Assembly (NCBI GenBank): GCA_002455215.1 | Contig: DKKK01000094.1 | Coordinates: forward strand, 4,304-29,269 | Reading direction: 5' to 3' | Source: Anaerolineales bacterium UBA6668 | GTDB lineage: Bacteria > Chloroflexota > Anaerolineae > Anaerolineales > UBA6668 | Length of the DNA stretch: 24,966 nucleotides | In this document: in pieces, positions 3,143-24,114 of the stretch | Position numbering within the stretch: the stretch's first letter is position 1 | Layout: each line of letters opens with the position of its first letter | The notes under the pieces: model-generated | The model's input: only the letters and a program-made list of their open reading frames with translations | What the model was told of the DNA's origin: nothing | The model's database searches: none | Program-made: the position numbers and the translations under genes

Positions 3143-3783
3143 TTGTTTTCTACCCTACTTAAGTGTTGAACATTGCCCAATTGTAAAACTTGAATGCGAT
3201 TTTCCCGAATTTCCACTTCAGTGACGGAGGTATTCTCCAAGTTAAAACGCACGTTACACAGCAGTGGCATCTTAAACAAATGGCGCAGGTAAATATTAAG
3301 CGAACCCCGATGGCTAATCACCAGCACATTTAGATATTTATTGGCTTTGATGATTCCATCTAGGGCGGTAACCATACGTTCTTGCACTGCCCGCGGATCT
3401 TCTCCGCCGGGCGGCGGTGCAATCTCCCATCCGTCTTTTTCCACTTGCTTTGCCCAATCGCCATATTGCGCTTGGACTTCGCTCCAGGTCAATCCGGTCA
3501 CTGCCCCCACATCGCGTTCTCGAAGCCGCTCATCTACTTGTAAGCTGGCTTGATATTGCTGTTGATGATAATTGGCTAGAATTTGAGCGGTTTGGCGGGC
3601 GCGTTGGGCAGGGCTGGTATAAAAAGCGTGTATGCGTTGCTTGCGAAGGACTTCCGCCAGCGCACGAGCTTGTGCAATACCCACATCATCTAAACTAGAA
3701 TCGGCATGTCCTTGCAAACGTCCTTGTGCATTCCAAGCAGAACGAGCGTGGCGCACCAAAAACAAGTTGATATGCTGACTCAC
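3139..3783 (-). CDS. Histidine phosphatase superfamily protein (phosphoglycerate-mutase fold)
   Basis: 214 residues. The phosphate-pocket motif is LVRHARSAWN (R11, H12 nucleophile), with SPAQRARQTA supplying the second Arg (~R61). LRERDVGAVTG holds the catalytic acid (E89) and VISHRGSL the second His (H158). All four core catalytic residues are present, although the usual RHG and SHGG contexts are RHA and SHRG here. Family members dephosphorylate small phosphorylated metabolites; alpha-ribazole phosphatase or sugar-phosphate phosphatase are possible. The start is a GTG inside GTGA, overlapping the thiolase stop by 4 nt, and its own stop overlaps the Gfo/Idh gene by 4 nt. It is therefore clearly translated as part of one operon. 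The reaction is not assignable. Confidence 0.86.
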   Translation of the reverse strand: MSQHINLFLVRHARSAWNAQGRLQGHADSSLDDVGIAQARALAEVLRKQRIHAFYTSPAQRARQTAQILANYHQQQYQASLQVDERLRERDVGAVTGLTWSEVQAQYGDWAKQVEKDGWEIAPPPGGEDPRAVQERMVTALDGIIKANKYLNVLVISHRGSLNIYLRHLFKMPLLCNVRFNLENTSVTEVEIRENRIQVLQLGNVQHLSRVENK

Positions 3784-4934
3784 GCGCTTTTCCCCAAGAT
3801 GTGAGTCAAGATGGTTGCGCCACTGCCACCGATATTTTGAGTCATAGCAATACGAGCATCCGGTACTTGGTTTGCGCCGCCTTCACCGCGCAATTGTGCT
3901 GTCGCTTCGACAATTTGGTACATGCCGGTTGCACCGACCGGGTGTCCGCGTGCTTTGAGCCCGCCCTGCGTGCAAATAGGCAGTTTGCCAGTGGGTGAAA
4001 TGTCATTTTCTATGGCAAATCGAGGACCTTGCCCACGCTCTGCAAAGCCACAGGCTTCGAGTGAGAGTGCCGACATGATACTAAAGGCATCATGTAATTC
4101 AAAAAGGTTGATATCTTTGGGCGTTACGCCCGCCATTTGATAGGCTTTTTGGGCAGAGAGTGCGGCGGCGGATAGCCAGAGTGGGTCGAAACGGTCGTGG
4201 ACGGCGAGCGAGTCGGTGGCGCTTGCCGCTCCCAGCACATGCACTGCCTTGGGATTGCCCACCGCCATTTCCAGTGGCACAATCAAGGCGGCGGCGGCGC
4301 CATCGCCTACCGGGCTGGCATCCAGCAGGTTAATGGGCGAAGCGACCATTTTCTCTTTGGCGTATTGTTCCGGGGTAATTTTGAATTGCAAGCGTGCATT
4401 CGGATTCCGCGCTCCGTTGGCGTGGGCGTTGATACTAAAAGTGGCAAAATCTTGGTGTTTCCAGCCATATTCGTGCATGTAGCGTTGCATGACAAGCGCA
4501 TTGATTGCCACAAACGAAAGACCGACTCCCGCTTCATAATCCGCATCGGCGGCGGTTGCCAGCGCTGAAGTGGTTTCGCTTCCGCCGGCTTCGGTCATCT
4601 TCTCCACGCCGACTGCCAAGGCGCTGTCCATTTCACCGGAGGCAACTGCCATGAGCGCGGCGCGGAAAGCGGCCGCCCCCGAACCGCAAGCGGCTTCAAT
4701 TTTCACTGCTTCGGCTTGATGTTGTTGGAGCCAATCGGCGAGTAGCGTGCCTAGGTGTTGTTGTCCGCTCAACGCACCGGAGAGCATATTGCCAACGAAT
4801 ATGCCGTCCACATTTGCGCGTCCGGCATCATTTAGGGCGTCTAAAGCGGCAAAGCCTGCCAATTCACGCAGGCTGTAATTCCAGTGTTCATCTACGGGGG
4901 TTTGCCCGATTCCGATTATAGCTAAAGGACGCAT
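3780..4934 (-). CDS. Thiolase-family acyl-CoA C-acyltransferase (SCP2/archaeal type)
   Basis: 384 residues from the ATG at 4934; a TTG at 4979 would add an unlikely hydrophobic leader. RPLAIIGIGQTPVDEHW is a typical thiolase N-terminus. The acyl-accepting Cys lies in IEAACGSGAAAFR (C83). The catalytic His residues are in ELHDAFSI (H281) and GGLKARGHPVGATG (H331). The C-terminal loop reads TQNIGGSGAT rather than the CIGGG of FadA/PhaA thiolases, as in SCP2-type and archaeal acetyl-CoA acetyltransferases. Those archaeal enzymes usually have a DUF35 partner gene next door; none is visible here. Predicted to condense or cleave acyl-CoA in the cytoplasm, in lipid, isoprenoid-precursor or degradation metabolism. 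There are 93 nt between it and the upstream oxidoreductase gene, and a 4-nt overlap with the downstream phosphatase. Confidence 0.87.
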   Translation of the reverse strand: MRPLAIIGIGQTPVDEHWNYSLRELAGFAALDALNDAGRANVDGIFVGNMLSGALSGQQHLGTLLADWLQQHQAEAVKIEAACGSGAAAFRAALMAVASGEMDSALAVGVEKMTEAGGSETTSALATAADADYEAGVGLSFVAINALVMQRYMHEYGWKHQDFATFSINAHANGARNPNARLQFKITPEQYAKEKMVASPINLLDASPVGDGAAAALIVPLEMAVGNPKAVHVLGAASATDSLAVHDRFDPLWLSAAALSAQKAYQMAGVTPKDINLFELHDAFSIMSALSLEACGFAERGQGPRFAIENDISPTGKLPICTQGGLKARGHPVGATGMYQIVEATAQLRGEGGANQVPDARIAMTQNIGGSGATILTHILGKSA

Positions 4935-5027
4935 AAGAAAGGGTAAGTGGTGAAAAATGAGAGATTTTTTGAGAAGCAAGTTTTGCCATAGCGGTTATGC
5001 CGACAATATCATAGCTAAAATTTGTTC

Positions 5028-7801: not shown

Positions 7802-7908
7802 CCGCAACCTACCCAACAAATTTTAACATTTTCATTTGAAAGTGCAACATCCATCGGGTAACATGATCATTTGATTTGACACACGTGAGAACTGAATTTT
7901 TCGCTTTC

Positions 7909-7988
7909 TATTCGACACGGATGGAAATTGCGCTTTCCCCATCAGAAAAAAGGCGCAATCTGATACCTGGCACACCTGAACCGTGCCA
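7909..7988. repeat. Two-hairpin intergenic element, copy B
   Basis: Begins CTATTCGACACGG. Stem 1 pairs TTGCGC (7928-7933) with GCGCAA (7953-7958). Stem 2 pairs TGGCAC (7968-7973) with GTGCCA (7983-7988) around a 9-nt loop. A degenerate left half (GACACACGTGAG...TTCGCTTTC) lies just before it at 7878-7907. The region 7710-8076 holds no convincing gene; it contains copies A and B, a promoter element and the yidC terminator. Confidence 0.6.
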
Positions 7989-8968: not shown

Positions 8969-10096
8969 CTATTTTGCAGGATAAGTCCATTGGGTAGTTC
9001 CATTGGCGCTATTGTAAGCATATACAGTTTGTTTGCCATCCACGGCGGCAATCAGCACCAAATCATTGACAAGCAGGGGTGTGCTGAGAAGTTTTTCTTT
9101 GATGCTTGAATCAACTTCAACTTCCCATTGCTTTAAGCCATCATCCATAGCAAATGCATAGACAAAGCCTTTTTCACTATTGATAATCACCAGGTTGTCG
9201 GTCAGCGCAGGTGCGCCGCGAACTGCGCTGTCCACGATTACGCGCCAACGTTCTGTGCCATTGGTTGCGTCTACTGCGTATAAGTTGCCTTTTAGGTCAC
9301 CAAAGTAGGCTACGCCATCACGTACGGATGGGCTAGACCATACCCAGCCCACAGTGGGAAAATCCCACAAGACAGAGCCATCTTGAGCAGAAAGTGCATA
9401 TACGTGATTACTCATGCTACCAATATACAAAATGCCATCCACCAGTGTTGGAGTGGCAACCAAACTGCCCCCTAGCTCGGTTTTCCATATATCGCTCCCA
9501 TCAGCGGTCTTCCAAGCATAGAGAAAGTGGTCATTGCTCGGTTGATATAAGCGGTCGCCATCAATGAGTGGGGCGCTCCACAGGGTATTGCTAGCGCTTT
9601 TTCGCCACAATTCGCTACCTTCCGCAGAAACGGCTACCAACTCATGTTCGTTAACTGCATAGCTGACACCATTGCCAAACGTGACGGCGTTTACCACCGT
9701 AGCATTTTTGCTGGGAGCCATGTCAAAAGACCACTGGTATTTGCCATCGTTTGATAACACAAAAAAGTGTTGGTGGTAGCTGGCAACCCCGATTTTATTT
9801 TCTTCAATGGCGAGTGGAGAATAAAACAAGTTGGCATTGCGGCTGGCGCTGTTTTGTTCAGCGGGTACGCTTTTGCTGTCAAATTTCCAAATCTCAACAC
9901 CGCTGGTAGGATTGAGTGCGATGACTGAATTTCCGGTGGTTACAGCAACCACATCACCGGAAACCGCCATTTCGGGCCAAGAGTAGCTGACTGCCGCACT
10001 ACAACCACTGAGTATAAGCCCACTTAGCCCAATGGCAAAAAGCGTCCAGCGGCGCGGTGACAGCACAAATTGTTTAGATAAAGAGAAAAGATTCAA
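8969..10096 (-). CDS. PQQ-type beta-propeller lipoprotein (BamB-like)
   Basis: 375 residues. After a basic N-terminus the signal peptide ends in LSGC (C32), a lipobox, so the protein is an exported lipoprotein. The rest is a string of about seven propeller blades, each carrying a PQQ_2-like pattern such as VDGILYIGSMSNHVYALSAQ, VRDGVAYFGDLKGNLYAVDA and GTERWRV. The start is a TTG at 10096 supported by GGAG six nt upstream; no Met occurs in the first 40 residues. The fold resembles BamB, the outer-membrane assembly scaffold, and also non-enzymatic propellers in monoderm bacteria. Its place between yidD and yidC suggests a role in membrane protein biogenesis or quality control, which is inference. 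Gaps are 34 nt after yidD and 25 nt before yidC. Confidence 0.85.
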   Translation of the reverse strand: MNLFSLSKQFVLSPRRWTLFAIGLSGLILSGCSAAVSYSWPEMAVSGDVVAVTTGNSVIALNPTSGVEIWKFDSKSVPAEQNSASRNANLFYSPLAIEENKIGVASYHQHFFVLSNDGKYQWSFDMAPSKNATVVNAVTFGNGVSYAVNEHELVAVSAEGSELWRKSASNTLWSAPLIDGDRLYQPSNDHFLYAWKTADGSDIWKTELGGSLVATPTLVDGILYIGSMSNHVYALSAQDGSVLWDFPTVGWVWSSPSVRDGVAYFGDLKGNLYAVDATNGTERWRVIVDSAVRGAPALTDNLVIINSEKGFVYAFAMDDGLKQWEVEVDSSIKEKLLSTPLLVNDLVLIAAVDGKQTVYAYNSANGTTQWTYPAK

Positions 10097-10130
10097 GTTG
10101 AACTCCTATAGGCGGTGGGGAAGCCGACCG

Positions 10131-10373
10131 CTAGTGCGGATGTGAATGTTGCGGCCATTCATCGGGTACGGGGTCGAAACCGCCTTTGGAAAACGGCTGA
10201 CAGCGTAGTATGCGCCAAACAGCCAATATGCCACCTTTGATAACCCCATGCCGCTCAATTGCAGTGTAGGCATATTCTGAGCAAGTGGGGTAAAAGCGAC
10301 AGGCAGGGGGTAGCATGGGTGAGATAAAACGCTTATAACCACGAATGAGTAAAAGGAATGGTTTTTTGAACAT
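10131..10373 (-). CDS. yidD: Membrane protein insertion efficiency factor YidD
   Basis: 80 residues. [20 protein letters not shown] followed by [15 protein letters not shown] and [16 protein letters not shown] contains the invariant Cys residues and nearly the whole family signature. YidD is a small amphipathic peripheral membrane protein that helps insertion and folding of inner-membrane proteins with YidC. The position between rnpA and yidC is the canonical one. A longer open frame at 10106-10435 in another phase on the same strand is a shadow. There is a 101-nt gap after rnpA that contains a large palindrome. Confidence 0.96.
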
Positions 10374-10426
10374 ATAAGGTAAGCTCTCAATAATAGAATG
10401 CCATTAACGTTTGTAACCAATGCTAA

Positions 10427-10464
10427 ATTCGACACGCGTCAAGCAACTTGCTTTCGTGTCGAAT
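10427..10464. repeat. Nested palindrome between rnpA and yidD (motif shared with two-hairpin elements)
   Basis: ATTCGACACG (10427-10436) and CGTGTCGAAT (10455-10464) are a perfect 10-bp inverted repeat. The space between holds a second perfect palindrome, AAGCAA-C-TTGCTT (10441-10453). The outer arm matches the ATTCGACACGG start of elements B and D. It could be an intercistronic RNA structure in the operon. Confidence 0.65.
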
Positions 10465-10474
10465 CTAAATAAAC

Positions 10475-10858
10475 TCATACTGGTTTCTCGTCAATTCCTG
10501 TTCGTAGTAGCCCTGCTTTTTGGCACGCATTTTTTAAAACCAAACAGGCAACGGCGCTAGTGCTCGTTGCCAGTGGTGCGCGGGCTATCAGTACAATGTC
10601 CCATCCGGGTTGTAAAAGGGTAGCGAGTTGCTGGATTGCCGCTCGTAAGATACGCCGACCGCGGTTTCGCACATTGGCTTTGCCAAAACTGCGGCTGGTA
10701 ATCAAGCCAATGCGTGTTTTTTGCTGTTGATTGGAGCAATAAGTAAGTATCACGAGTGGGGTACGAACCGCACGCCCGCTGATACGAACTCGCTCAAAAT
10801 CTTCGCGCTGGCGTAAACTCTCCACTGTTGTGGATGGGAGACGTGCCAACCAACGCAT
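10475..10858 (-). CDS. rnpA: Ribonuclease P protein component
   Basis: 127 residues. The signature TRIGLITSRSFGKANVRNRG with RRILRAAI (about residues 48-75) is the RNR motif of RnpA, which binds the P RNA and the 5' leader of pre-tRNA. An N-terminal LRQREDFERVRISGRAVRTP helix and strand and a C-terminal GWDIVLIARA strand complete the family fold. It works with the catalytic RNA (not in this window) to mature tRNA 5' ends. The gene begins 14 nt after rpmH, the near-universal pairing. Length is normal. The start at the ATG at 10858 gives an N-terminus (MRWLARLPSTTVESLRQ) like that of many homologues. Confidence 0.95.
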   Translation of the reverse strand: MRWLARLPSTTVESLRQREDFERVRISGRAVRTPLVILTYCSNQQQKTRIGLITSRSFGKANVRNRGRRILRAAIQQLATLLQPGWDIVLIARAPLATSTSAVACLVLKNACQKAGLLRTGIDEKPV

Positions 10859-10872
10859 GAATTTGGCAAAAA

Positions 10873-11082
10873 CTAATCTTTGCGTGCGCTAGCGCCACTC
10901 TTCTTGGCGTTCCAATCGACTCGTTTGAGCATGGTGCTCTTATCACCTACTGTCAATGCCCAACGTCCCTTGGCGCGACGTGCTTTCAGCACACGGCGAC
11001 CATTGTGGGTGGACATACGGGAGCGGAAGCCATGCACACGGGCATAGCGGCGAATTTTAGGTTGCAGGGTTCGTTTGGTCAT
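10873..11082 (-). CDS. rpmH: 50S ribosomal protein L34 with C-terminal extension
   Basis: 69 residues. The first ~45 ([19 protein letters not shown], then [21 protein letters not shown]) are textbook L34, which is normally 44-47 residues. A further 24 residues ([19 protein letters not shown] plus SARKD) extend the C-terminus with basic and polar sequence; the frame is clean and ends just 14 nt before rnpA, so the extension is encoded. L34 binds 23S rRNA in the large subunit. AAGGA lies about 8 nt before the ATG, one of the few clear Shine-Dalgarno sites in the window. It is the first gene of the rpmH-rnpA-yidD-propeller-yidC operon and is driven by a near-consensus promoter at 11168-11196. 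Confidence 0.96.
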
Positions 11083-11140
11083 AAGTCAAATCCTTTTTGG
11101 AGGGGTTATTAAGTCCCTGTGAATAGCAATAATAAAACTA

Positions 11141-11156
11141 CGGTTCACAAGAACCG
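11141..11156 (-). promoter_or_regulatory. Hairpin at the 5' end of the rpmH leader
   Basis: CGGTTC-N4-GAACCG is a perfect 6-bp stem. It would start about 5 nt after the predicted transcription start of the rpmH operon, so the mRNA would carry a 5'-terminal stem-loop. Confidence 0.5.
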
Positions 11157-11167
11157 AAGCGGGTCGC

Positions 11168-11196
11168 ATTATACAAGCATTTTGGATACAGGTCAA
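11168..11196 (-). promoter_or_regulatory. Sigma70-type promoter of the rpmH operon
   Basis: On the minus strand TTGACC (11191-11196) and TATAAT (11168-11173) are separated by exactly 17 nt. This is the best promoter match in the window and predicts a start near 11161, giving an ~80-nt leader to rpmH. The surrounding intergenic stretch 11083-11466 has no gene; it also holds an inverted repeat CATCCAAT (11260-11267)/ATTGGATG (11286-11293) of unknown role and the lon promoter area. Confidence 0.85.
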
Positions 11197-11391
11197 ATCA
11201 TTGGTGCGTGAGATAATAGGCAAGCTTTTACCAGAGCTACTCATTATACATTACTGTGTCATCCAATCATCCGTCTAATCCGCATATTGGATGATGGTTG
11301 TTTCACTTGCTTGAACAGTTACCCATACTCAGCATTTATTCGCCTTCTTAACCTTTAAAATAAAACTAAAATAAAATGCACACGGCAGAAG

Positions 11392-11436
11392 AAAATCGCG
11401 GTTTGTTACTATTGGTGTATAATTGCCCGCGGTTTT
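11392..11436 (+). promoter_or_regulatory. lon promoter region with flanking inverted repeat
   Basis: TATAAT at 11418-11423 is a good -10 box about 44 nt before the lon ATG; no clear -35 is seen. It is centred inside an imperfect 10-bp inverted repeat, AAAATCGCGG (11392-11401) and CCGCGGTTTT (11427-11436), which covers the -35 region and the expected transcription start. This is the layout of an operator. Confidence 0.45.
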
Positions 11437-11466
11437 CCTTACTGCATTCCTATCACCCATAATTTC

Positions 11467-14025
11467 ATGACTGCTGAATTCATCCATTTTCCTGCCCAAA
11501 GTTCCGATTCATCCCAGCTAGAAAACGCTACCCAAAACGAAACCCTCGCACGAGTGATTTTAGATATGTTGTTAAGCCCTGTCATTAATGTAAGTACGCA
11601 AGCCGAGTCTGCCGTTGACTCCGCCACAGAAATTTCCCCAAGCGAGAGCGAATCGGAGCATATTCTGCCGATATTACCATTGCGCGGTTTGGTAGTCTTT
11701 CCGGAAACAGGCGTACCCCTGAATGTAGGACAAGAGCGCTCTTTACGCTTGGTAGATACAGTCGCCAACACATCCAAAATCATTGGCTTGCTAACGATTA
11801 AATCGCCTGATGTGGAAGTGCCAGAACCAGAACATTTATACGAATACGGCACAACCGCCATCATTCAGCGCTTATTTCGTGCGCCTGACGGTACAGTACG
11901 CTTGTTGGTGCAAGGCTTTAATCGCTTCCGCGTGCAGGAATTTGTAGCTGGCGAGCCATACTTGCAAGCCAAAGTTGAACTTGCCCCGGAGACGCCAGAA
12001 ACATACACCCCAGAACTTGAAGCACTCAAAAGGCTGGTATCTGAACGTTTTCAGCGCTACTCTGAGCTAGGACCCAACTTGCCCGAAGAATTGATGCAAT
12101 TGGTTCTCGGCAATGAAAACCCATTGCAAACTGCCTATAGCATTGCGAATTACATTCGCATTGATGTAGAAACCGCCCAGCGCGTGCTTGAACTTAATCT
12201 GGTATCTGAAAAATTCTACCTGCTTTTGGAAGTGCTCAACAAAGAACTCGAAGTACTAGAATTGGGTCGAAAAATCCAAGAAACAGCACAAACCAGCATG
12301 GAGAAAGTGCAAAAAGAGTACTTCTTGCGCGAACAACTCAAAGTCATCCAGCAAGAACTGGGCGAGTCAGATGAAACCACTACCGACGTAGCTGAATTTC
12401 GCCAGAGTATTAGCGCGGCAAACTTGCCACCCGAAGCGTTACGCGAAACCGAGCGGGAATTGGCTCGCTTAGGGCGGCTCTCGTCATCTGCCGCCGAATA
12501 TGGTGTGATTCGCACCTACTTAGAATGGATGGTGGCATTACCGTGGAACAAAGCCACCACTGACAACCTAAACCTTTCTTACGCTCGCCAAGTACTAGAA
12601 GAAGACCACTTCGGCTTGGAGAAGGTAAAGAAACGCATCATTGAATTTTTGGCTGTGCGCAAGTTGCGGACAGAACGTGCCGCCGAATTTACCGAAGAAG
12701 GTGAAGACAGCTTACGCCGTGACCGCGAAGGCACTATTTTGTGCTTTATCGGACCGCCCGGTGTGGGTAAAACTAGCCTAGGGCGAAGTATCGCCCGTGC
12801 CCTTGGGCGGAAATTTACGCGCATTTCGTTAGGCGGTGTCCATGACGAAGCCGAAATTCGCGGACACCGCCGCACCTATATTGGTGCGCTACCCGGTCGC
12901 ATCATCCAAGCTATCAAGCGCGTAGGCTCACGCAATCCAGTATTTATCCTAGATGAAATTGACAAGCTCGGCTCCGATTTTCGCGGCGACCCTGCCAGCG
13001 CCTTACTAGAAGTGCTTGACCCCGAACAAAACCGCGAGTTTCGCGATCACTACCTAGACGTGCCGTTTGACTTGTCGCAAGTGTTTTTCATCGCCACCGC
13101 CAATTATGTGGATAGCATTCCCTGGGCGTTACGAGACCGCATGGAAGTGATTTATCTAAGCAGTTACACCGAGCAAGAAAAACTAGCCATTGCGAAAAAT
13201 TACTTGGTGCGCCGCCAATTGCGCGAGAACGGGCTACGCCCAAACGAGCTAACTTTTCAAGATGATGCGTTGCTCTCCATTATCCGCGCCCACACACGAG
13301 AAGCTGGGGTGCGAAATTTGGAGCGGAAAATTGCCGCACTCTGCCGTAAAGCGGTTGTTTCCATAAATGATGGCGCAGAAATTCCCATGACCATCAGCGA
13401 AGCAGTGGTACGCGAACAGTTGGAAGACCCTATCTTGCCAAGTTCAGAAACATTTAAACGCTCAAATGAAATCGGCATTGCTACTGGCATGGTGTACACC
13501 AGCGTTGGCGGGGATGTGTTATTTATTGAAACAGTCGCCTTGCCGGGTGGACGGGGTATCAATTTAACCGGACGGCTGGGCAATGTCATGCAAGAGAGTG
13601 CGGAAGCCGCTTACACCTGGGTAAAAGCCAATGGCAAGGAATTTGGCATACCCAAAAACTATTTCAATGACCACGAAGTTCACATTCATGCCCCCGAAGG
13701 CGCTACGCCCAAAGATGGTCCCTCGGCGGGCATCACCATCGCTACCGCTTTGGTTTCATTAGCTAGCGGCATTCCAGTACGCACAGATGTCGCAATGACA
13801 GGCGAAATCACCTTACGCGGACAAGTAACGCAAATCGGCGGAGTGAAGGAGAAAGTGCTGGGAGCGCATCGTGCGGGCATTACCACCATTATCTTGCCCC
13901 GTCAGAACGAAGATGATATTAAGGAAATTCCTGAAGAAGTTCGGCATCAACTCAAATTCATCTTAGTAGACCGCATGGCAGAAGTGATTCAAAATGCCTT
14001 GAATTACGAAAAGCAAAAATCTTAA
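11467..14025 (+). CDS. lon: ATP-dependent protease LonA
   Basis: 852 residues. The N-terminal substrate-binding domain begins at [20 protein letters not shown] (~65-84), preceded by a ~60-residue acidic, low-conservation extension from the ATG at 11467; a later in-frame ATG at 11565 is possible. The AAA+ module has Walker [10 protein letters not shown] (K435), Walker [10 protein letters not shown] (D496-E497), and the [19 protein letters not shown] segment. The C-terminal protease domain has the catalytic Ser in PKDGPSAG (S753) and the Lys in GGVKEKVLG (~794-796). Lon degrades misfolded and regulatory proteins in the cytoplasm using ATP. It stands alone after a divergent promoter region and is 17 nt upstream of the YfhO-like gene. 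All catalytic residues are intact. Confidence 0.97.
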
Positions 14026-16690: not shown

Positions 16691-16859
16691 TCTATACCCT
16701 ACCCAATATTAAGGGAATAGGGGGGATAGCGCTGTGTTTTTGCAAAAAAAAGCGGATCTCAGGTGGACGTTATCATTCAAGGTCAAGAAAGCCACTTTTG
16801 TCAACTCACAGGGGGCAGTTGCGCAAAATGTAGAATACCACTACACTAATCATAGTTGT

Positions 16860-16939
16860 TATATTCGACACGGAGAGAAATTGCGCTTTTTTCTTAAGCA
16901 AAGAAACGCAACCCGATATTTGGCATGTTGCCGAATATA
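16860..16939. repeat. Two-hairpin intergenic element, copy D
   Basis: Begins TATATTCGACACGGAG. Stem 1 pairs TTGCG (16881-16885) with CGCAA (16907-16911), continued by T-tract/A-tract pairs after one mismatch. Stem 2 pairs ATATTTGGC (16916-16924) with GCCGAATAT (16930-16938) around a 5-nt loop with one G-T wobble. It shares the CGCAA..C.GATA..TGGCA core with copy B. The stretch 16691-17143 contains no convincing gene, only copies D and E. Confidence 0.65.
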
Positions 16940-17023
16940 ATCTGTGTTAAGTATAGTCTGTACAATTGCAAAATGAATTCTTGATTAATTTGCATTTGAC
17001 TCATCGGAGCGATGTATTTTCGG

Positions 17024-17143: not shown

Positions 17144-18019
17144 ATGAAATTCATCGACCTAACCATCCCTTTTGGTATTGGCACACCTGCTTGGCCCACT
17201 TATGAGCCTTTACAAGTAAAATATTTTAAACGCCTTGCCCCCAATGGCGCAAATGGGCAATTGGTTACACATAGCAACCATGTAGGCACACACTTGGACG
17301 GCGAAATTCACTTTTACACGCCGGGAAAAGACATTGCATCGCTGACTTTTGACTTTTTGGCAGGCTCAGCGGCAATTGTGGACTTAAGTGACATTTGTGG
17401 GGATTATGACATTTACACCCCCGAAATGATTGAAGAACGGGTAGAAGTGCGCGTAGGCGATATTCTCATCATCCACACTGGGTATCACCATTTTGGCTGG
17501 GACCAACCGTATGGCAATGAAGTGCGCTACATGGTGATGCACCCCGGTCCCGATGACCGCTTTGCCCGCTGGTGTATGGAGAAAAAAATCAAATGGATTG
17601 GGGTGGATTGTGGCAGTGCCGACCATCCCATGAACACCAAAATCCGCGAGTGGATGCCTGCACAAGCCAAAGCGGCAGATGAACATTTACGTGCCAAACA
17701 TGGCAAAGGCTTGGAGCAAATTTTCACACCCGATATGTATCAAATGATGCATTTGTGGATGTTTGACAAGGGCATTATTCATGCCGAATGTGTGGGCGGA
17801 GATATAGACCTGCTGGTGAATCGGCGCGTGCAGGTTGGGTGCTTCCCCTGGCGCTTTGTGGATGGCGAAGCCAGCCTAGCTCGCATTGTGGCAATGGTGG
17901 ACGATAGCGAATATGAAGCGCTCATGGCAAAGAAAGCTAGCCTACCCAAAACCAAGTTTGGCGACTGCTACGACCCGCTACATGTGGAGCGCTTGGGCGG
18001 GCGTGGCAGAGTATTCTAA
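17144..18019 (+). CDS. Cyclase-family metal-dependent hydrolase (kynurenine formamidase/isatin hydrolase fold)
   Basis: 291 residues from the ATG at 17144 (MKFIDLTIPFGIGTPAWPTY). The frame is open up to 17012, but that part lies in repeat copy E and does not look like protein. The family's metal-binding signature H-x-G-T-H-x-D-x3-H is present in HSNHVGTHLDGEIHFY (H46, H50, D52, H56). Members are Mn- or Zn-dependent hydrolases of cyclic amides, imides or formamides such as isatin and formylkynurenine. There are only 2 nt to the CoA-transferase gene, and FdrA and DUF1116 follow. In this context a ring-opening step on a nitrogen heterocycle or ureide, producing an acid for the next enzymes, is the most natural guess; the substrate itself cannot be read from sequence. 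Confidence 0.85.
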   Translation: MKFIDLTIPFGIGTPAWPTYEPLQVKYFKRLAPNGANGQLVTHSNHVGTHLDGEIHFYTPGKDIASLTFDFLAGSAAIVDLSDICGDYDIYTPEMIEERVEVRVGDILIIHTGYHHFGWDQPYGNEVRYMVMHPGPDDRFARWCMEKKIKWIGVDCGSADHPMNTKIREWMPAQAKAADEHLRAKHGKGLEQIFTPDMYQMMHLWMFDKGIIHAECVGGDIDLLVNRRVQVGCFPWRFVDGEASLARIVAMVDDSEYEALMAKKASLPKTKFGDCYDPLHVERLGGRGRVF

Positions 18020-18021
18020 CC

Positions 18022-19194
18022 ATGTCAGCACTCTCCAATATTCTTGTCCTTGACCACACTACCGCGCTTGCGGGTCCCTACTGCACACAAATGCTCGGTG
18101 ATCTGGGCGCAGAAGTGATTAAAATTGAACGAGCAGGGGTTGGGGATGCCAGTCGTGCCTGGGGTCCCCCTTTTGTCAACGGTGAGTCCGCTTACTTTTT
18201 GGGCGTAAACCGCAACAAGCGCAGTCTTTCACTTAACCTAGCTAACCCTGCCGAGCGCGAAATTTTCCACAAATTGGTAGCGCGTGCCGATGTGTTGGTG
18301 CAGAATGTGCCGCGCCAAGATAGCCGCGTCAAATTGGGCTTGGATTATGAAACCTGCCAAACCATTAACCCGCGCTTGGTATGGGCAAGCATCACTGGTT
18401 ATGGCAATTCATCCGGTCCCTATAGCGAAAAACCCGGCTATGATGTAGCAATACAAGGCATGGCAGGCACAATGGCACTGACCGGCGCACCAGATAGCGA
18501 GCCGATGCGCTTTCCCACCCCTATTGCCGACATCACCACCGGTTTGTACACTGCGCTCGCCATTGTGTCCGCCCTATTTACACGTGAACACACTGGCAAG
18601 GGGCAAATGATTGACAATGCGCTCCTAGACTGCCAAGTGACTTGGTTGGCAAACATGGCGAGTAGCTATCTGATTGCCGGCACGCCGTTTCGCAAACTAG
18701 GCAATACACACCCCAGCATTGTGCCGTACCAGCCGTTTCCCACTGCCGACCGCCCCATCATCATTGCGGGCGGCACCGAAGAGCACTGGCAAAAGCTCAC
18801 TCAAGTTTTGGGTTTGCCTGAACTCGCCAACGATCCACGCTTTGCCCACAACCCTGACCGATTACAAAATAAAGCCGAGTTGATTCCGCTCTTGACAGCC
18901 CGCCTACAAGAAAAATCAGCGCTAGAATGGGTAGAAGCGCTAGAAATCGCAGGGATTCCAAATGGGCTGGTCAACACTCCAGAAGATATACTGGCAGATT
19001 TGCATCTGGAAGCACGCGAAATGATTGTGGAGATGGAACATCCCACTGTTGGCAAAATCCGCACATTGGGCAACCCCATGAAATTGAGCGATACGCCTGT
19101 CAGCTATCGCCGCCCTGCGCCTACGCTCGGTCAACATACACAGGAAATATTGCAAGAGTTAGAAAATGGGCAGTTGGGCACAAACGATGCATAA
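18022..19194 (+). CDS. CaiB/BaiF (class III) CoA-transferase family protein
   Basis: 390 residues. NILVLDHTTALAGPYCTQML and GDLGAEVIKIERAGVGDASR open the family fold. NRNKRSLSLNL (~63-73) is the usual CoA-contact region, and the catalytic Asp is D170 in PTPIADITTGLYTA. KPGYDVAIQGMAG is also canonical. Class III enzymes move CoA between small carboxylic acids, for example oxalate/formate, succinate/2-methylmalate or carnitine derivatives. The motif usually written ENFRPG reads QNVPRQ (94-99), so the active-site lip may differ. The gene begins 2 nt after the cyclase stop. Predicted job: activate the acid made by the cyclase step, or remove CoA from it. Substrate unknown. Confidence 0.88.
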   Translation: MSALSNILVLDHTTALAGPYCTQMLGDLGAEVIKIERAGVGDASRAWGPPFVNGESAYFLGVNRNKRSLSLNLANPAEREIFHKLVARADVLVQNVPRQDSRVKLGLDYETCQTINPRLVWASITGYGNSSGPYSEKPGYDVAIQGMAGTMALTGAPDSEPMRFPTPIADITTGLYTALAIVSALFTREHTGKGQMIDNALLDCQVTWLANMASSYLIAGTPFRKLGNTHPSIVPYQPFPTADRPIIIAGGTEEHWQKLTQVLGLPELANDPRFAHNPDRLQNKAELIPLLTARLQEKSALEWVEALEIAGIPNGLVNTPEDILADLHLEAREMIVEMEHPTVGKIRTLGNPMKLSDTPVSYRRPAPTLGQHTQEILQELENGQLGTNDA

Positions 19195-19197
19195 TTT

Positions 19198-19230
19198 ATA
19201 TGCGGTTCACACGGAAATCGCGCCGAATAT
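19198..19230. repeat. Degenerate short element, copy F, before fdrA
   Basis: ATATGCGG (19198-19205) and CCGAATAT (19223-19230) are arms with one mismatch. The interior TTCACACGGAAATCGCG is a shortened version of the CACGGAGAGAAATTGCG core of copy D. It lies in the 91-nt gap between the CoA-transferase and fdrA. Confidence 0.4.
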
Positions 19231-19285
19231 GCCTATTCCTAATCTCTATTCCCTGGTACCTAAGCTCTAACCCTTATCGATTCCT

Positions 19286-20974
19286 ATGCCTATCCAAACT
19301 CAACTCCGTCATGGCGCCTATTACGACTCTGTGGTTCTAATGCAATTACAAGCCGCCTTGAGCCAATTAAGCGGGGTACAAAATGTTGGGGTAATGATGG
19401 GAACACCCGCCAACAAAGCGCTACTGGCACAAAGCGGACTACTCACCCCCGAAGCCGAGTCTGCCGCTCCCGATGACTTGATTATCAGTGTGCTGGGCAA
19501 AAACGCCGATGACAGCCAAAATGCCTTAGCACAGGTGGATAGTTTGCTGATGAAGCGCAGTACAGGCACAGAAGGCGACTATCTGCCCCAAAGCTTGCCT
19601 GCCGCCGCCAAAGCCTTGCCTTCAGCCCAGTGGGTGCTGGTCTCTGTACCTGGGCGCTATGCCGCCGATGTCGCACGTGATGCGCTCAACATGGGCAAGC
19701 ATGTGTTTTTGTATAGTGACAATGTCTCACTCGCCGATGAAATTGAACTAAAACAATCTGCCACAGCAAAAGGCTTGTTGGTGATGGGTCCAGATTGTGG
19801 CACTGCGATTATCAACGGTGTCGGGCTGGGCTTTGCAAACCGCGTGCGGCGTGGACCCATCGGCGTAGTCGGCGCAAGTGGCACTGGTTTGCAACAAGTG
19901 ACCAGCCGTATTCACCAACTCGGTAGTGGCATCTCACACGCCATGGGTACGGGCGGGCGCGACCTAAAAGCGGATGTCGGGGCTTTAACCGCCCGCCAAG
20001 CCCTTTCCTTGCTTGCCAACGACCCACAAACCCAAGTGATTGTGCTGATTTCCAAGCCGCCCGCCCCTGCCGTTGCTCAAGAACTGCTCCGACTGGCACG
20101 CACTATCCCCAAACCAGTGGTGGTAAACTTCATCGGCTATCAACCTAACGAGAGCGAAGCGAGTGACGGTAGTGTGTGGTTTGCTCGCACATTGGATGGC
20201 GCGGCGCAATTGGCGGTCAATCTGCTCTCGTCCGCCACGCCGGCAGTGACCATCCCTGCCCCAGCCCACGCCCGCTACTTGCGCGGCTTGTTTAGCGGTG
20301 GGACACTCGCCTACGAAGCCCTACTCATTTTGCAAGATTACCTACCCAGCGTGTATTCCAATGCCCCGCTAGACAAGCGCTATCAACTGTCAAACTCATT
20401 GGTGAGTCAAGAACATACCATTGTGGATTTGGGCGAAGACGAGTTTACGGTGGGACGTTTGCACCCGATGCTGGACAATACCCTGCGCCTGCACAGGCTG
20501 GCACAGGAAGCCGCCGACCCGCAAGTGGGCTTAATTTTGCTAGATGTGGTCTTGGGCGATGGCGCTCATCCGAACCCTGCTAGCGAAATTGCCCCTGCCA
20601 TTGAGAAAGCCAAAGAAACTGCCCGCGCCGATGGACGTGATTTGCCAGTGGTGGTGGTGGTGTGTGGCACAGACGAAGACCCGCAAAATATGGCGGAGCA
20701 AATTGCCCTATTAGAAGCGGCAGGAGCACAAGTCTTTAGCAATAATGAAACTGCTATCCGCCACGTGGGTGAGTGTGTGCAAAAATTGGGTGGGCTGGGC
20801 TTAGCCAATGTACAAAACAACCTAGACCAACCATTTGCCGCGCTCAATGTCGGTTTGGAAAGCTTTGCCCAAAGCTTACAAACGCAATCTGCCGCCGTAC
20901 AACACCTGAACTGGCGCCCCCCGGCAGGCGGCAACGATAAACTAATGGCGCTCCTACGCAAAATGAAAGGATAA
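19286..20974 (+). CDS. fdrA: FdrA (AllF) family acyl-CoA synthetase-like protein
   Basis: 562 residues (E. coli FdrA is about 555). The N-terminal CoA-binding-like domain contains FLYSDNVSLADEIELKQSAT and LLVMGPDCGTAIINGVGLGF (~141-183), then GPIGVVGASGTGLQQVTSRI with MGTGGRDLKADVGALTA (~190-236). This is the FdrA signature, related to succinyl-CoA synthetase alpha. The second half resembles the ligase/flavodoxin-like domain. In E. coli FdrA was renamed AllF: with YlbE (AllG) and YlbF (AllH) it forms oxamate carbamoyltransferase, which splits oxalurate into oxamate and carbamoyl phosphate in anaerobic allantoin use. The AllG homologue follows here after 25 nt; AllH (DUF2877) is not in the window. 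The start is the ATG at 19286, without Shine-Dalgarno. Family certain; reaction here inferred. Confidence 0.9.
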   Translation: MPIQTQLRHGAYYDSVVLMQLQAALSQLSGVQNVGVMMGTPANKALLAQSGLLTPEAESAAPDDLIISVLGKNADDSQNALAQVDSLLMKRSTGTEGDYLPQSLPAAAKALPSAQWVLVSVPGRYAADVARDALNMGKHVFLYSDNVSLADEIELKQSATAKGLLVMGPDCGTAIINGVGLGFANRVRRGPIGVVGASGTGLQQVTSRIHQLGSGISHAMGTGGRDLKADVGALTARQALSLLANDPQTQVIVLISKPPAPAVAQELLRLARTIPKPVVVNFIGYQPNESEASDGSVWFARTLDGAAQLAVNLLSSATPAVTIPAPAHARYLRGLFSGGTLAYEALLILQDYLPSVYSNAPLDKRYQLSNSLVSQEHTIVDLGEDEFTVGRLHPMLDNTLRLHRLAQEAADPQVGLILLDVVLGDGAHPNPASEIAPAIEKAKETARADGRDLPVVVVVCGTDEDPQNMAEQIALLEAAGAQVFSNNETAIRHVGECVQKLGGLGLANVQNNLDQPFAALNVGLESFAQSLQTQSAAVQHLNWRPPAGGNDKLMALLRKMKG

Positions 20975-20999
20975 CCTAACTGACGTCTCACTACCCATT

Positions 21000-22259
21000 A
21001 TGAACATAGACTCTGCCAATACTGAAACCACTACCCGCATGATGTCTGCCCGTCCGATGCTGGTCGGCACTGCCACTACTCGCGATGTAATTCCCGGCAT
21101 GACCGATGATTTATTACTACACGCGGGTCCTCCCATCACTTGGGAACGTGCCAGCGGACCGATGCGCGGTGCTATCACGGGCGCATTGATTTTTGAAGGC
21201 AAAGCAACCGATATGGTAGGCGCGGCAGAATTGGTGCAGAGCGGCAAGATTCGCCTACACCCCTGCCACCACCATGCCACAGTCGGACCGATGGCAGGGG
21301 TCACTAGCCCAAGCATGTCGGTTTATGTGCTAGAAAATGCGGTGCATGGCAACCGTAGTTTTAGCAATATCAATGAAGGTTATGGCAAAGTATTGCGTTA
21401 TGGAGCTTACAGCGAAGAAGTATTAGACCGCTTGCGCTGGCTCAATGATGTCTTGGGCAAGGTACTGAATAACGCCTTGCAAGGCATGGGTGGGCTGGAT
21501 ATGAAGGCTTTGATGGCAGAAGCCTTGCACATGGGCGATGAAGGGCACAATCGCAACAAAGCCGCCAGTGTATTGTACCTAAAAGCACTTGCCCCCCACA
21601 TCGCACGCTCTGCCCCCGATAGCGAAACCGCCGCGCAGGTTTTGCAAGCGCTGGGCGACAACGCTTTGGCAGTCTTGAATCCGGTGATGGCGGCTGGGAA
21701 AGCGATGGCAGATGCGGCGCAAGGGGTGCAGGGCAGTACCATTGTGACTGTCATGGCACGCAACGGCACCGATTTTGGCATCCGCGTCAGTGGTATTGGG
21801 GGCAAAGGCACCGACACGCGCTGGTTTACGGGTCCAGTCGGGCATCCCAAAGGCTTATATTTCCCCAATTTCACCGCCGAAGATGGCAGTGGCGACATTG
21901 GCGACAGCACGATTACCGAGAGTATTGGCATTGGGGGTTTCGCAATGGCCGCGGCGCCAGCAATTGTCACTTTTGTCAGCGGTTCGCCAAGTGATGCGGT
22001 CAAAGCCACGTTGGAAATGTATGAAATTTGCCACACCGAACACAACGCTTTCACCATTCCACAATTGGAGTTTCGCGGTACGCCAACCGGTATTGATATT
22101 CGCAAAGTGGTCGAAACCGGCATCACCCCGCGTATTAACACTGGCATTGCCCACAAAAACGCGGGCGTAGGGCAAATTGGTGCGGGTTTGGTGCGTCCCC
22201 CGATGAGCGCGTTTGAAGACGCATTGATGGCTTACGCCAAACAATACGGTTTTGAATAG
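21000..22259 (+). CDS. ylbE: DUF1116 protein, YlbE (AllG) family
   Basis: 419 residues, the normal family length. Distinctive conserved blocks: MLVGTATTRDVIPGMTDDLL near 20-39, HAGPPITWERASGPMRGAIT at 41-60, HPCHHHATVGPMAGVTSPSM (CHHH at 89-92), ALHMGDEGHNRN (~175-186), then RNGTDFGIRVSG and GIDIRKVVETG. The His/Cys and Asp/Glu/His-rich blocks could form a metal or carbamoyl-transfer site. In E. coli it is the AllG subunit of oxamate carbamoyltransferase. It follows fdrA by 25 nt and ends the cluster; a GC-rich hairpin lies 9 nt after the stop. Without AllH nearby, the complex may use a distant AllH or work with a different substrate. Confidence 0.9.
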   Translation: MNIDSANTETTTRMMSARPMLVGTATTRDVIPGMTDDLLLHAGPPITWERASGPMRGAITGALIFEGKATDMVGAAELVQSGKIRLHPCHHHATVGPMAGVTSPSMSVYVLENAVHGNRSFSNINEGYGKVLRYGAYSEEVLDRLRWLNDVLGKVLNNALQGMGGLDMKALMAEALHMGDEGHNRNKAASVLYLKALAPHIARSAPDSETAAQVLQALGDNALAVLNPVMAAGKAMADAAQGVQGSTIVTVMARNGTDFGIRVSGIGGKGTDTRWFTGPVGHPKGLYFPNFTAEDGSGDIGDSTITESIGIGGFAMAAAPAIVTFVSGSPSDAVKATLEMYEICHTEHNAFTIPQLEFRGTPTGIDIRKVVETGITPRINTGIAHKNAGVGQIGAGLVRPPMSAFEDALMAYAKQYGFE

Positions 22260-22365: not shown

Positions 22366-24114
22366 ATGACATGTGCTTGGATTCAAGACGACTCAACCGG
22401 GCAATGGTGGCATTTTTCTGACCCAATCGGACAATACACTGCCCACCAATTGGCAGACGTGCCTACGGTTCTGGTACAAGCCGACCAGGCAGTTCACGAC
22501 CCAGCCCGACCCGCGTGTTGGGCGGTGGGCTTTGTCAGCTACACGGCAAGCGCCGCTTTTGACCGCGCCCTGCCGTACCGCCCCACAACGGGCACATCCC
22601 TGCCATTTGCCCACTTCACCCTCTATCGCACCCGCTCGCTTTCTCCGCTTCCAGCCCCGCAGACAGTTTTTCAGCTAACGACTTGGCAGGCGGCAATCTC
22701 GCCGCAGAGCTACCAAGCGGCAATCGCCCACATCAAGAACCAAATCGCGGCGGGCAACACCTATCAAGTCAACTTTACTTTCCCACTGTTTAGCAATTTT
22801 TCGGGCGACCCTTACGCGCTCTTTTGGCAAATGACGCAAGCCATGACAGGACAGCGCGGCAATTTGGGCGCTTTTTTGCAAACGGCGGAGTGGGCGGTGT
22901 GTAGCGCCTCCCCCGAACTGTTTTTTCGCCGCGATGGTACGCAAATCACCTGCCGCCCGATGAAAGGCACTGCCCCGCGTGGGCGATGGCTCGCCGAAGA
23001 CCAAGCCATCGGCGCAGAATTGCGCCACAGCATCAAAAACCGCGCTGAAAACGTGATGATCGTGGACATGATTCGCAATGACTTGGGACGGGTGGCAGAA
23101 GTGGGAAGCGTGCATGTCCCTGCACTGTTCGAAACCACACCTTACCCCACCCTGTGGCAAATGACCAGCACCGTGCAAGCCACCAGCCACGCCAGTTTGC
23201 CCGACTTGTTCTCTGCGCTTTTCCCCTGCGCCTCCATCACCGGTGCGCCCAAAGTGCGTACCATGCAAATCATCCACCAATTGGAGAGTCACCCACGCGA
23301 CTTATACTGCGGTGCGATTGGCTATTGGGGCAACGATGGACAGGCGCAATTCAACGTAGCCATCCGTACCGTACAAATTGACCGCACCACCCAGACCGCC
23401 CGCTATGATGTGGGCAGTGGCATCATCTGGGACTCGGAAAGCACGGCAGAGTACGATGAATGTTTGGTCAAAGCCCGCCTTCTGACCGAAGATTTGCCCG
23501 AATTTGAATTGTATGAAACTCTGCGCTGGGAAGTAGCGGGGGGATATTGGCTACTGGAAGAACATTTGCACCGCTTGGCAGAATCGGCGGCGTATTGGGG
23601 GTTTGTGTTTGACAAGGGACAGGTTTTGCAATGCTTGCTGGGCGCGGCACAACATTGGCACAGCCCACAACGGGTACGCATTACTCTTGACCGCCACGGC
23701 ACGCTCCAACTCAGCTACCGCGACCTGCCCCCAGCCGAATCCGCCCCCATCGCCGCTCAATTTGCCACCACGCCGGTTCAGAGCGCTAACCGTTGGCTTT
23801 TCCACAAAACCAGCTACCGTGCCGTTTACGAACACGCGCTGGCACAAGTTCGCACGCCCGATGTGATTTTGTGGAACGAACGCGCTGAAATCACCGAAAC
23901 CAGCATTGGCAATTTGGTGCTGGAATTAGATGGCAGTTGCTATACCCCTAGTCGAGACAGTGGCTTGCTAGCGGGCACATTGCGGGCACACTTGCTTGCT
24001 ACGGGCAAAATCCAAGAGCGTACACTCACACGGGCTGACCTGCTACTGGCACAACGTGTTTGGCGTATCAACTCGGTACGTGGCTGGAACGAATTGCAAA
24101 TCCTACCCGCTTGA
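22366..24114 (+). CDS. pabB: PabB-PabC fusion: aminodeoxychorismate synthase component I with aminodeoxychorismate lyase
   Basis: 582 residues, two enzymes in one chain. Residues ~1-385 are the chorismate-binding domain: QSYQAAIAHIKNQIAAGNTY QVNFT (read as two parts), RPMKGTAPRG with the Lys (K200) that marks PabB rather than TrpE, SIKNRAENVMIVDMIRNDLG, and SITGAPKVRTMQII (290-303). Residues ~395-582 are a class IV aminotransferase/lyase: FHKTSYRAVYEHAL with the probable PLP Lys481, LWNERAEITETSIGNLVLEL, and SGLLAGTLRAHLL. Together they convert chorismate plus ammonia to aminodeoxychorismate and then to p-aminobenzoate and pyruvate for folate synthesis. The glutamine amidotransferase (PabA) is not in the window. 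The SRPBCC gene follows after 29 nt. Confidence 0.94.
   Translation: MTCAWIQDDSTGQWWHFSDPIGQYTAHQLADVPTVLVQADQAVHDPARPACWAVGFVSYTASAAFDRALPYRPTTGTSLPFAHFTLYRTRSLSPLPAPQTVFQLTTWQAAISPQSYQAAIAHIKNQIAAGNTYQVNFTFPLFSNFSGDPYALFWQMTQAMTGQRGNLGAFLQTAEWAVCSASPELFFRRDGTQITCRPMKGTAPRGRWLAEDQAIGAELRHSIKNRAENVMIVDMIRNDLGRVAEVGSVHVPALFETTPYPTLWQMTSTVQATSHASLPDLFSALFPCASITGAPKVRTMQIIHQLESHPRDLYCGAIGYWGNDGQAQFNVAIRTVQIDRTTQTARYDVGSGIIWDSESTAEYDECLVKARLLTEDLPEFELYETLRWEVAGGYWLLEEHLHRLAESAAYWGFVFDKGQVLQCLLGAAQHWHSPQRVRITLDRHGTLQLSYRDLPPAESAPIAAQFATTPVQSANRWLFHKTSYRAVYEHALAQVRTPDVILWNERAEITETSIGNLVLELDGSCYTPSRDSGLLAGTLRAHLLATGKIQERTLTRADLLLAQRVWRINSVRGWNELQILPA

Follow-up and report, generated by a model that had tools for sequence, protein, structure and literature searches.

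The classical oxidative pyrimidine pathway consists of uracil dehydrogenase, barbiturase and ureidomalonase, and a study by Soong from 2001 reportedly belongs, by its title, to the literature on it. In Escherichia coli, AllFGH (FdrA/AllF, AllG/YlbE and AllH) was experimentally shown to be an oxamate transcarbamylase, and AllFG without AllH restored ~7% of oxamate formation, as stated in the available part of that report (PMC11326118); AllH is thus perhaps helpful and not strictly required. In metagenome-assembled genomes (MAGs) of Nitrospira, allFGH and a carbamate kinase gene adjoin triuret genes, going by the accessible portion of the source (PMC12625717), a further sign that FdrA and AllG serve more than allantoin. 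Here, a stretch of 24,966 bases from Anaerolineales bacterium UBA6668 (the window; contig C210 of an assembly of 3.34 Mb in 225 contigs, 92% complete) was analysed around four plus-strand genes that encode a cyclase-family hydrolase, a class III coenzyme A (CoA)-transferase, FdrA and AllG. These genes are probably part of an oxidative, energy-conserving route from uracil (possibly thymine) via barbiturate and ureidomalonate to malonate. On balance, and a shade less firmly, we also favour an unrecognised oxidative pyrimidine pathway in at least Chloroflexota, Spirochaetes, Bacillota and Caldiserica, which would employ a cyclase-family barbiturase and AllFG(H)-type phosphorolysis of ureidomalonate and would yield ATP and malonyl-CoA instead of urea.

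The four-gene set and its conservation

Between the four co-directional genes lie 2, 91 and 25 nt, as an earlier reading of the letters alone (the sequence-only reading) had it and as coordinates and family matches bear out; that reading was also right that AllH and carbamate kinase are not adjacent. They encode (i) a metal-dependent hydrolase of the cyclase family (17144..18019; 291 amino acids; PF04199, 104 bits), predicted to open the barbiturate ring; (ii) a class III (CaiB/BaiF) CoA-transferase (18022..19194; 390 amino acids; PF02515 CoA_transf_3, 422 bits), whose predicted substrate is malonate or malonamate; (iii) FdrA/AllF (19286..20974; 562 amino acids; NF004760, 577 bits against a cut-off of 433); and (iv) AllG/DUF1116 (21000..22259; 419 amino acids; PF06545, 293 bits). 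The last two belong to the families of the AllFGH subunits and are predicted transcarbamylase subunits.

The longest cyclase open reading frame (ORF) starts at 17012; in alignment A5, however, 10 of 17 relatives start level with the shorter form from 17144, which makes 17144 the likelier start. The metal motif HVGTHLDGEIHF was intact in a motif survey, matching the family motif HxGTHxD...HF. In the same alignment the protein shares 88% identity with the L134 cyclase and 68–73% with eight further window-type cyclases from Spirochaetes, Chloroflexota and one unassigned lineage; FdrA-AllG clusters of the two named phyla repeatedly contain cyclases within this 68–88% range. Its AlphaFold model has a mean predicted local distance difference test (pLDDT) score of 78, with values <50 at residues 15–60, metal motif included. 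Three PF04199 matches were found in the window's genome: the window gene, one on contig C172 and a third, unlisted one that is probably the other half of the C172 protein, a tandem cyclase of two fused domains (L204:8673-10511) located away from FdrA-AllG. Such tandem fusions occur in several Chloroflexota, where motif residues are gone from the N-terminal half (TVGTHLVGERAF type), HLATHMDGEKHF being kept in the C-terminal half; they look like a pseudo-enzyme joined to an enzyme (L038:10480-12201, L068:10365-12038, L087:7141-8868 and others). By eye, ABC-transporter-like ORFs adjoin the C172 gene.

Conservation was followed in two sets of AllG loci. Among 400 Chloroflexota genomes drawn, 71 carried AllG, and 77 AllG stretches were fetched, the window's own being excluded; a GTDB scan with the AllG alignment contributed the best 80 of at least 589 confirmed stretches, a selection biased towards proteins related to the window's AllG. 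Some genomes, such as those of L068 and L161, are represented in both sets, whose neighbour labels are homology-weighted (phmmer, >40 bits). A cyclase was found in 31 of the 77 Chloroflexota stretches, whereas genome sizes and the number of cyclase copies would predict 1.28; because this expectation assumes random cyclase placement and treats related genomes as independent, the comparison demonstrates linkage and gives no exact probability. Likewise, 59 of the best 80 loci, from named genomes that include Spirochaetes, Bacillota and Caldiserica, harboured a cyclase, which in 49 of the 80 lies ≤600 nt from AllG on the same strand. The complete set of cyclase, CoA-transferase, FdrA and AllG was present in 6 of the 77 stretches and 10 of the best 80 loci, among others in Spirochaetes (L170, L177 and L194), Alkaliphilus (L174) and Fuchsiella (L182). 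The neighbourhood comparison that the sequence-only reading had proposed therefore revealed a cyclase–FdrA–AllG link that recurs in several phyla, and its concern that the genes might not be conserved together was not borne out. Cluster-bearing organisms whose records carry no MAG label include Fuchsiella alkaliacetigena Z-7100 (L182) and Thermomicrobium sp. CFH 73360 (L190). ORF clusters 12 and 34 from these loci had no Pfam match and may be wrong frames.

In a FastTree phylogeny of 149 AllG proteins, the window's AllG (73–75% identical to relatives in Caldilineae/Anaerolineae MAGs) falls within a clade of 91 rows with 99% local support, and E. coli YlbE lies outside. Among the 91 rows, 71 are cyclase-linked, 9 lack a cyclase despite >4 kb of flank on both sides and 11 are on short contigs. 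Cyclase presence changes only 9 times over the tree, as compared with a minimum of 28 in 200 shuffles of the labels. Clade loci hold CoxL (59), amidase or CN-hydrolase (49), NCS2 permease (28), AllH (20), CoA-transferase (17) and carbamate kinase (1), counts that are lower bounds since many loci are cut short. A conserved protein without Pfam match accompanies cyclase-FdrA-AllG clusters of several phyla in 15 of the 91 clade loci and in 0 of 57 outside (L041:7131-7859, L161:7067-7846 and L184:4373-5047). By eye, a C-terminal segment of ~50 residues in some FdrA proteins, including the window's, resembles an N-terminal extension of the L096 AllG, as if moving between subunits, and the AllG of L114 (G100:C71) lies in several pieces in different frames.

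Recurrent neighbours and the proposed uracil route

We infer every substrate, reaction direction and step order of the route, which would run as follows. A molybdenum (Mo) hydroxylase of the CoxMSL/xanthine-dehydrogenase family, its large subunit being unlinked in the window's genome, would convert uracil to barbiturate, and the cyclase-family hydrolase would open barbiturate to ureidomalonate in place of an AtzD-type barbiturase. FdrA-AllG, with AllH where present, would then split ureidomalonate with phosphate, giving malonamate and carbamoyl phosphate; AllFGH acts in this way on oxalurate, a compound shorter by one CH2. Malonamate would be hydrolysed to malonate and ammonia by amidases of several unrelated families, malonate would be activated by the class III CoA-transferase to malonyl-CoA and decarboxylated to acetyl-CoA, and carbamate kinase would draw ATP from carbamoyl phosphate.

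A CoxL-type Mo-hydroxylase is encoded in 29 of 31 (Chloroflexota) and 39 of 50 (GTDB scan) loci that hold FdrA, AllG and the cyclase, and in Alkaliphilus L174 it is accompanied by the selenium-molybdenum maturation genes YqeB and YqeC. The CoxL of the window's genome (L201:4224-6581, contig C182) is 71% identical to that of a Caldilineales MAG cluster (L123), with no match for CoxM or CoxS across 19 kb of that contig. Two more distant Mo-hydroxylases are located on contigs C72 and C166; on the latter, a kynureninase over its cut-off and a gene pair resembling xanthine dehydrogenase are a few kb apart (L203:4880-6103 and 9009-11692). As for uptake, 28 of 31 NCS2 permeases longer than 1150 nt were closest to UraA or RutG, the 31 including two same-genome duplicate pairs and three cyclase-less loci (L076, L078 and L166).

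Enzymes of malonate metabolism recur in different forms. In Bacillota L178, MdcA (890 bits, cut-off 789), the Mdc beta subunit (340, cut-off 228) and MdcE are encoded, and an MdcA homologue is found in L175. The stretch between CoxL and FdrA in Spirochaetales L185 encodes a carboxyltransferase of mmdA type (790, short of its own cut-off of 999), OAD_gamma, a biotin carrier and a Na+-pump beta subunit (511, cut-off 191), and L176 holds parts of a similar Na+-pump decarboxylase set. Within the window's own order, L205 has mmdA and OadB homologues and two small, untyped ORFs, flanked by CoxL on one side and a window-type cyclase on the other. A malonyl-CoA synthase subfamily member just over its cut-off (565 against 558) is present in L136, with homologues in L070, L084, L158 and others. 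Malonate could be used by different enzymes across clusters, so that a shared malonate product is the simplest reading.

Other neighbours are in keeping with ring and amide hydrolysis. A dihydropyrimidinase (592 bits, cut-off 393) is encoded in L146 and near Caldilineaceae clusters, and hydantoinase-family homologues in 9 cyclase-linked loci. Of the loci with a cyclase, 12 of 31 (Chloroflexota) and 33 of 59 (GTDB scan) also encode an amidase or CN-hydrolase. Hydrolases of three families (PF01425, PF00795 and an M42-type protein) occur in the clusters and may carry out malonamate hydrolysis. AtzD-type barbiturase (PF09663) was detected neither in the window's genome nor in 19 relatives of its order or class, nor in control genomes, and in 5 of the 71 genomes of the whole set. 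The window's CoA-transferase scored under the cut-off of every NCBIfam model that it matched, and the nearest solved structures are chains of succinate-hydroxymethylglutarate CoA-transferase.

Among the matches listed from open-licence literature, as titles and abstract openings, no link of FdrA or AllG with barbiturate, uracil or the cyclase was found, which is weak evidence of novelty. If the route holds, genes for oxidative uracil use would be recognised in several uncultured or anaerobic lineages, the wide spread of FdrA and AllG, so far studied for allantoin, would be explained and a second kind of barbiturase would be named; moreover, pyrimidines would supply cells with ATP and with a C3 unit already activated by CoA, and substrates would be predicted for three unassigned enzyme subfamilies.

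Counter-evidence and alternative readings

Several observations weigh against the uracil route. In the window's genome CoxL is unlinked and the four genes have no other pathway genes nearby; moreover, the C182 CoxL is nearest to a model for 'aerobic CODH group 5' (carbon monoxide dehydrogenase; 936 bits, under the cut-off of 950) that names no uracil enzyme. An NCS2 permease was found neither in this genome nor in 9 of the 19 searched genomes of its order or class. As CoxL is unlinked and the permease was not found, either the pathway genes are scattered, or the assembly lacks some of them, or part of the pathway has been lost. Malonate-processing homologues, some of them weak, were seen in a minority of the 173 loci (MdcA in 2, OadB-type in 5, mmdA-like in 6 and malonyl-CoA-synthase-like in 12). 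Finally, besides the nine cyclase-less clade loci, 13 cyclase-linked AllG rows fall outside the clade, so that the association must have arisen, spread or been lost more than once.

AllH and carbamate kinase form part of the same balance. No AllH (PF11392) match was found in the window's genome, with the E. coli positive control detected; since the assembly is 92% complete, this could be an assembly gap. AllH was present in 57 of the 71 AllG-bearing Chloroflexota genomes (the window's genome included) and, among cyclase-linked loci, lay within the stretch fetched for 13 of 31 (Chloroflexota) and for 15 of 59 (GTDB scan); a lack of AllH is thus not a general feature. A carbamate kinase (363 bits, cut-off 358) is encoded on another contig (C100, L005:6853-7887), outside the four-gene operon and, by eye, among ORFs without evident link, and the genome-wide search which the sequence-only reading had called for gave no sign of the separate allantoin operon it had feared. 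The kinase exceeded its cut-off in all 19 of the searched order and class genomes (19 of 20, G235 being left out), and the single local kinase gene among the 91 clade loci is a further point against the route. A protein labelled 'C32' was considered as a divergent AllH and rejected: by eye it has none of the AllH-conserved residues, it has no Pfam match, and its resemblance to GNAT acetyltransferases is likewise by eye only. A separate AllG-linked cluster in Chloroflexota (L042, L044, L059, L061, L066, L071 and L072) contains carbamate kinase and a RutB-like isochorismatase, with no cyclase in the stretch.

It is unlikely that the same logic serves a different ring, be it a cyclic ureide or imide derived from purines or of other origin, or chiefly thymine (leading to methylmalonate), that is oxidised, opened and decarbamoylated. 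The 3 of 31 NCS2 permeases closest to purine carriers, the PucR-type regulators of some clusters (a family named for purine catabolism) and the mmdA-type decarboxylase subunits speak for this and count against uracil as well; Na+-pump decarboxylases of the mmdA/OadB type can also act on methylmalonyl-CoA. So do, for a different ring, the coexistence of tandem and window-type cyclases in six Chloroflexota genomes and in L139, and the ATP-binding cassette (ABC) transporter with BPD_transp_2 permeases that adjoins the single cyclase of L207. However, the great majority of the permeases are on the uracil side, MdcA and MdcE are malonate decarboxylase families, and a dihydropyrimidinase adjoins some clusters.

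Quite improbable is the parabanate route, the candidate offered in the sequence-only reading, in which the cyclase would open parabanate to oxalurate, FdrA-AllG would release oxamate and carbamoyl phosphate, and an amidase and the CoA-transferase would lead to oxalyl-CoA. A 1965 study reportedly states in its title that parabanic acid induces oxamate transcarbamylase in a Streptococcus. The window's CoA-transferase shares 38% identity with YfdE, an oxalate enzyme; by bit score, 3 of 18 other cluster CoA-transferases (L170, L177 and L182), and likewise L194_10511, are nearer to YfdE than to the window's enzyme, and FdrA and AllG are subunits of the known oxalurate enzyme, as far as the available part of its description goes (PMC11326118). 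However, oxalyl-CoA decarboxylase exceeded its cut-off in none of the 19 genomes searched, the weaker matches in 16 of them (best 282 of 739 bits) being expected of related thiamine pyrophosphate enzymes, and the window's CoA-transferase fell well under the NCBIfam equivalog cut-offs for oxalate CoA-transferase (Frc/YfdE; 284.7 against 522 and 252.7 against 504.2). E. coli AllC, AllD and AllE found matches in 2, 1 and 0 of 173 loci, respectively, and of the 14 loci with AllB matches 12 score higher with the hydantoinase HyuA. Because malonate enzymes and uracil-type permeases recur and oxalyl-CoA decarboxylase does not surpass its cut-off in any of the 19 genomes, the ring is probably barbiturate, formed from uracil, and not parabanate. 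The broader idea of the sequence-only reading, a cyclase that opens a cyclic ureide and an FdrA/AllG pair that moves the carbamoyl group, gains support as a variant from the conserved linkage; its candidate, parabanate, is weakened.

That FdrA-AllG is a CoA-linked acyl or carbamoyl ligase partnered with the CoA-transferase, with no transcarbamylase involved, is very improbable. The window's FdrA does match the Ligase_CoA and CoA-binding domains, and a 2012 paper had suggested such a role for the E. coli protein, as its available portion indicates (PMC3364942). The GHAG phospho-His loop of SucD, which marks the alpha subunit of ADP-forming acyl-CoA synthetases, is missing from all 12 aligned FdrA proteins (E. 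coli FdrA has a GHxG elsewhere), an absence that makes the ligase role unlikely and, as judged from the alignment, fits transcarbamylase chemistry better than that of a ligase. Further against it stand the transcarbamylase activity reported for E. coli AllFGH in the accessible text (PMC11326118) and the CoA-transferase gene seen in just 17 of 91 clade loci; the CoA-linked option raised in the sequence-only reading accordingly loses ground. Least credible of all is a cyclase that has nothing to do with its neighbours and acts as kynurenine formamidase or isatin hydrolase: its modelled fold matches both enzymes, and a kynureninase (315 bits, cut-off 246) is encoded on another contig of a genome with just three PF04199 matches, but its score with the arylformamidase KynB model (TIGR03035) was 42.6 bits against a cut-off of 223.05 and closely similar cyclases recur in FdrA-AllG clusters, which leaves little of the earlier suspicion that it belongs to kynurenine degradation.

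Elsewhere in the window, typed genes (Lon, YfhO-like, PabB/aminotransferase IV, YidC and the RNase P protein) have no evident link to the four-gene set; PabB (aminodeoxychorismate synthase component I) is fused to a class IV aminotransferase (22366-24114). A thiolase on the minus strand (3780-4979) matches, with 249 bits, a thiolase found in some clusters and, at 12 kb distance, is not claimed as part of the set. A search of the window revealed no malonate enzyme besides the CoA-transferase, whose malonate substrate is itself putative. Upstream of the cyclase, palindromes of the form ATATTYGG..CCRAATAT (a pattern picked after viewing the sequence) are found within a dispersed repeat of ~100 bp (16859-16956, also 7906-7972). 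As this repeat has 13 further matches in the searched sequence of the window's genome (one elsewhere in the window) and none in 208 other loci, the palindromes were rejected as operators.

Comparison with known systems

Against these alternatives, the uracil-to-malonate route can be set beside four described systems. Isatin hydrolases and kynurenine formamidases share with the window's cyclase the PF04199 fold (in the predicted model), the metal motif and amide or ring hydrolysis, whereas identity in structural alignments is 13–18%, the neighbourhood differs and the arylformamidase score is far below its cut-off. The E. coli UGC cluster (ygeW-yqeA, hyuA, xdh and mocA) resembles the proposed route in its logic of Mo-hydroxylase, carbamoyl transfer and carbamate kinase. 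Unlike the present loci, however, it uses YgeW, a protein unrelated to FdrA/AllG according to the available part of the source (PMC11326118), and homologues of YgeW, YgeX and YgeY were found in 0 of 173 loci (E 1e-15).

With E. coli AllFGH and AllK, the window's system shares FdrA (42% identical) and AllG (48% identical to YlbE), a proposed phosphorolytic carbamoyl transfer and a carbamate kinase in the same genome. It differs in that no AllH was found in the window's genome, the kinase is unlinked and the window holds no AllB, AllC, AllD or AllE homologue, whereas its operon includes a cyclase and a CoA-transferase and its AllG falls in another clade. With the classical oxidative pyrimidine pathway, the route proposed here would have in common barbiturate and ureidomalonate as intermediates and malonate as end product. 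It would depart from it in two respects: no AtzD-type barbiturase was found in the window's genome and the 19 order and class relatives, and the carbamoyl group would be kept as carbamoyl phosphate rather than released as urea.

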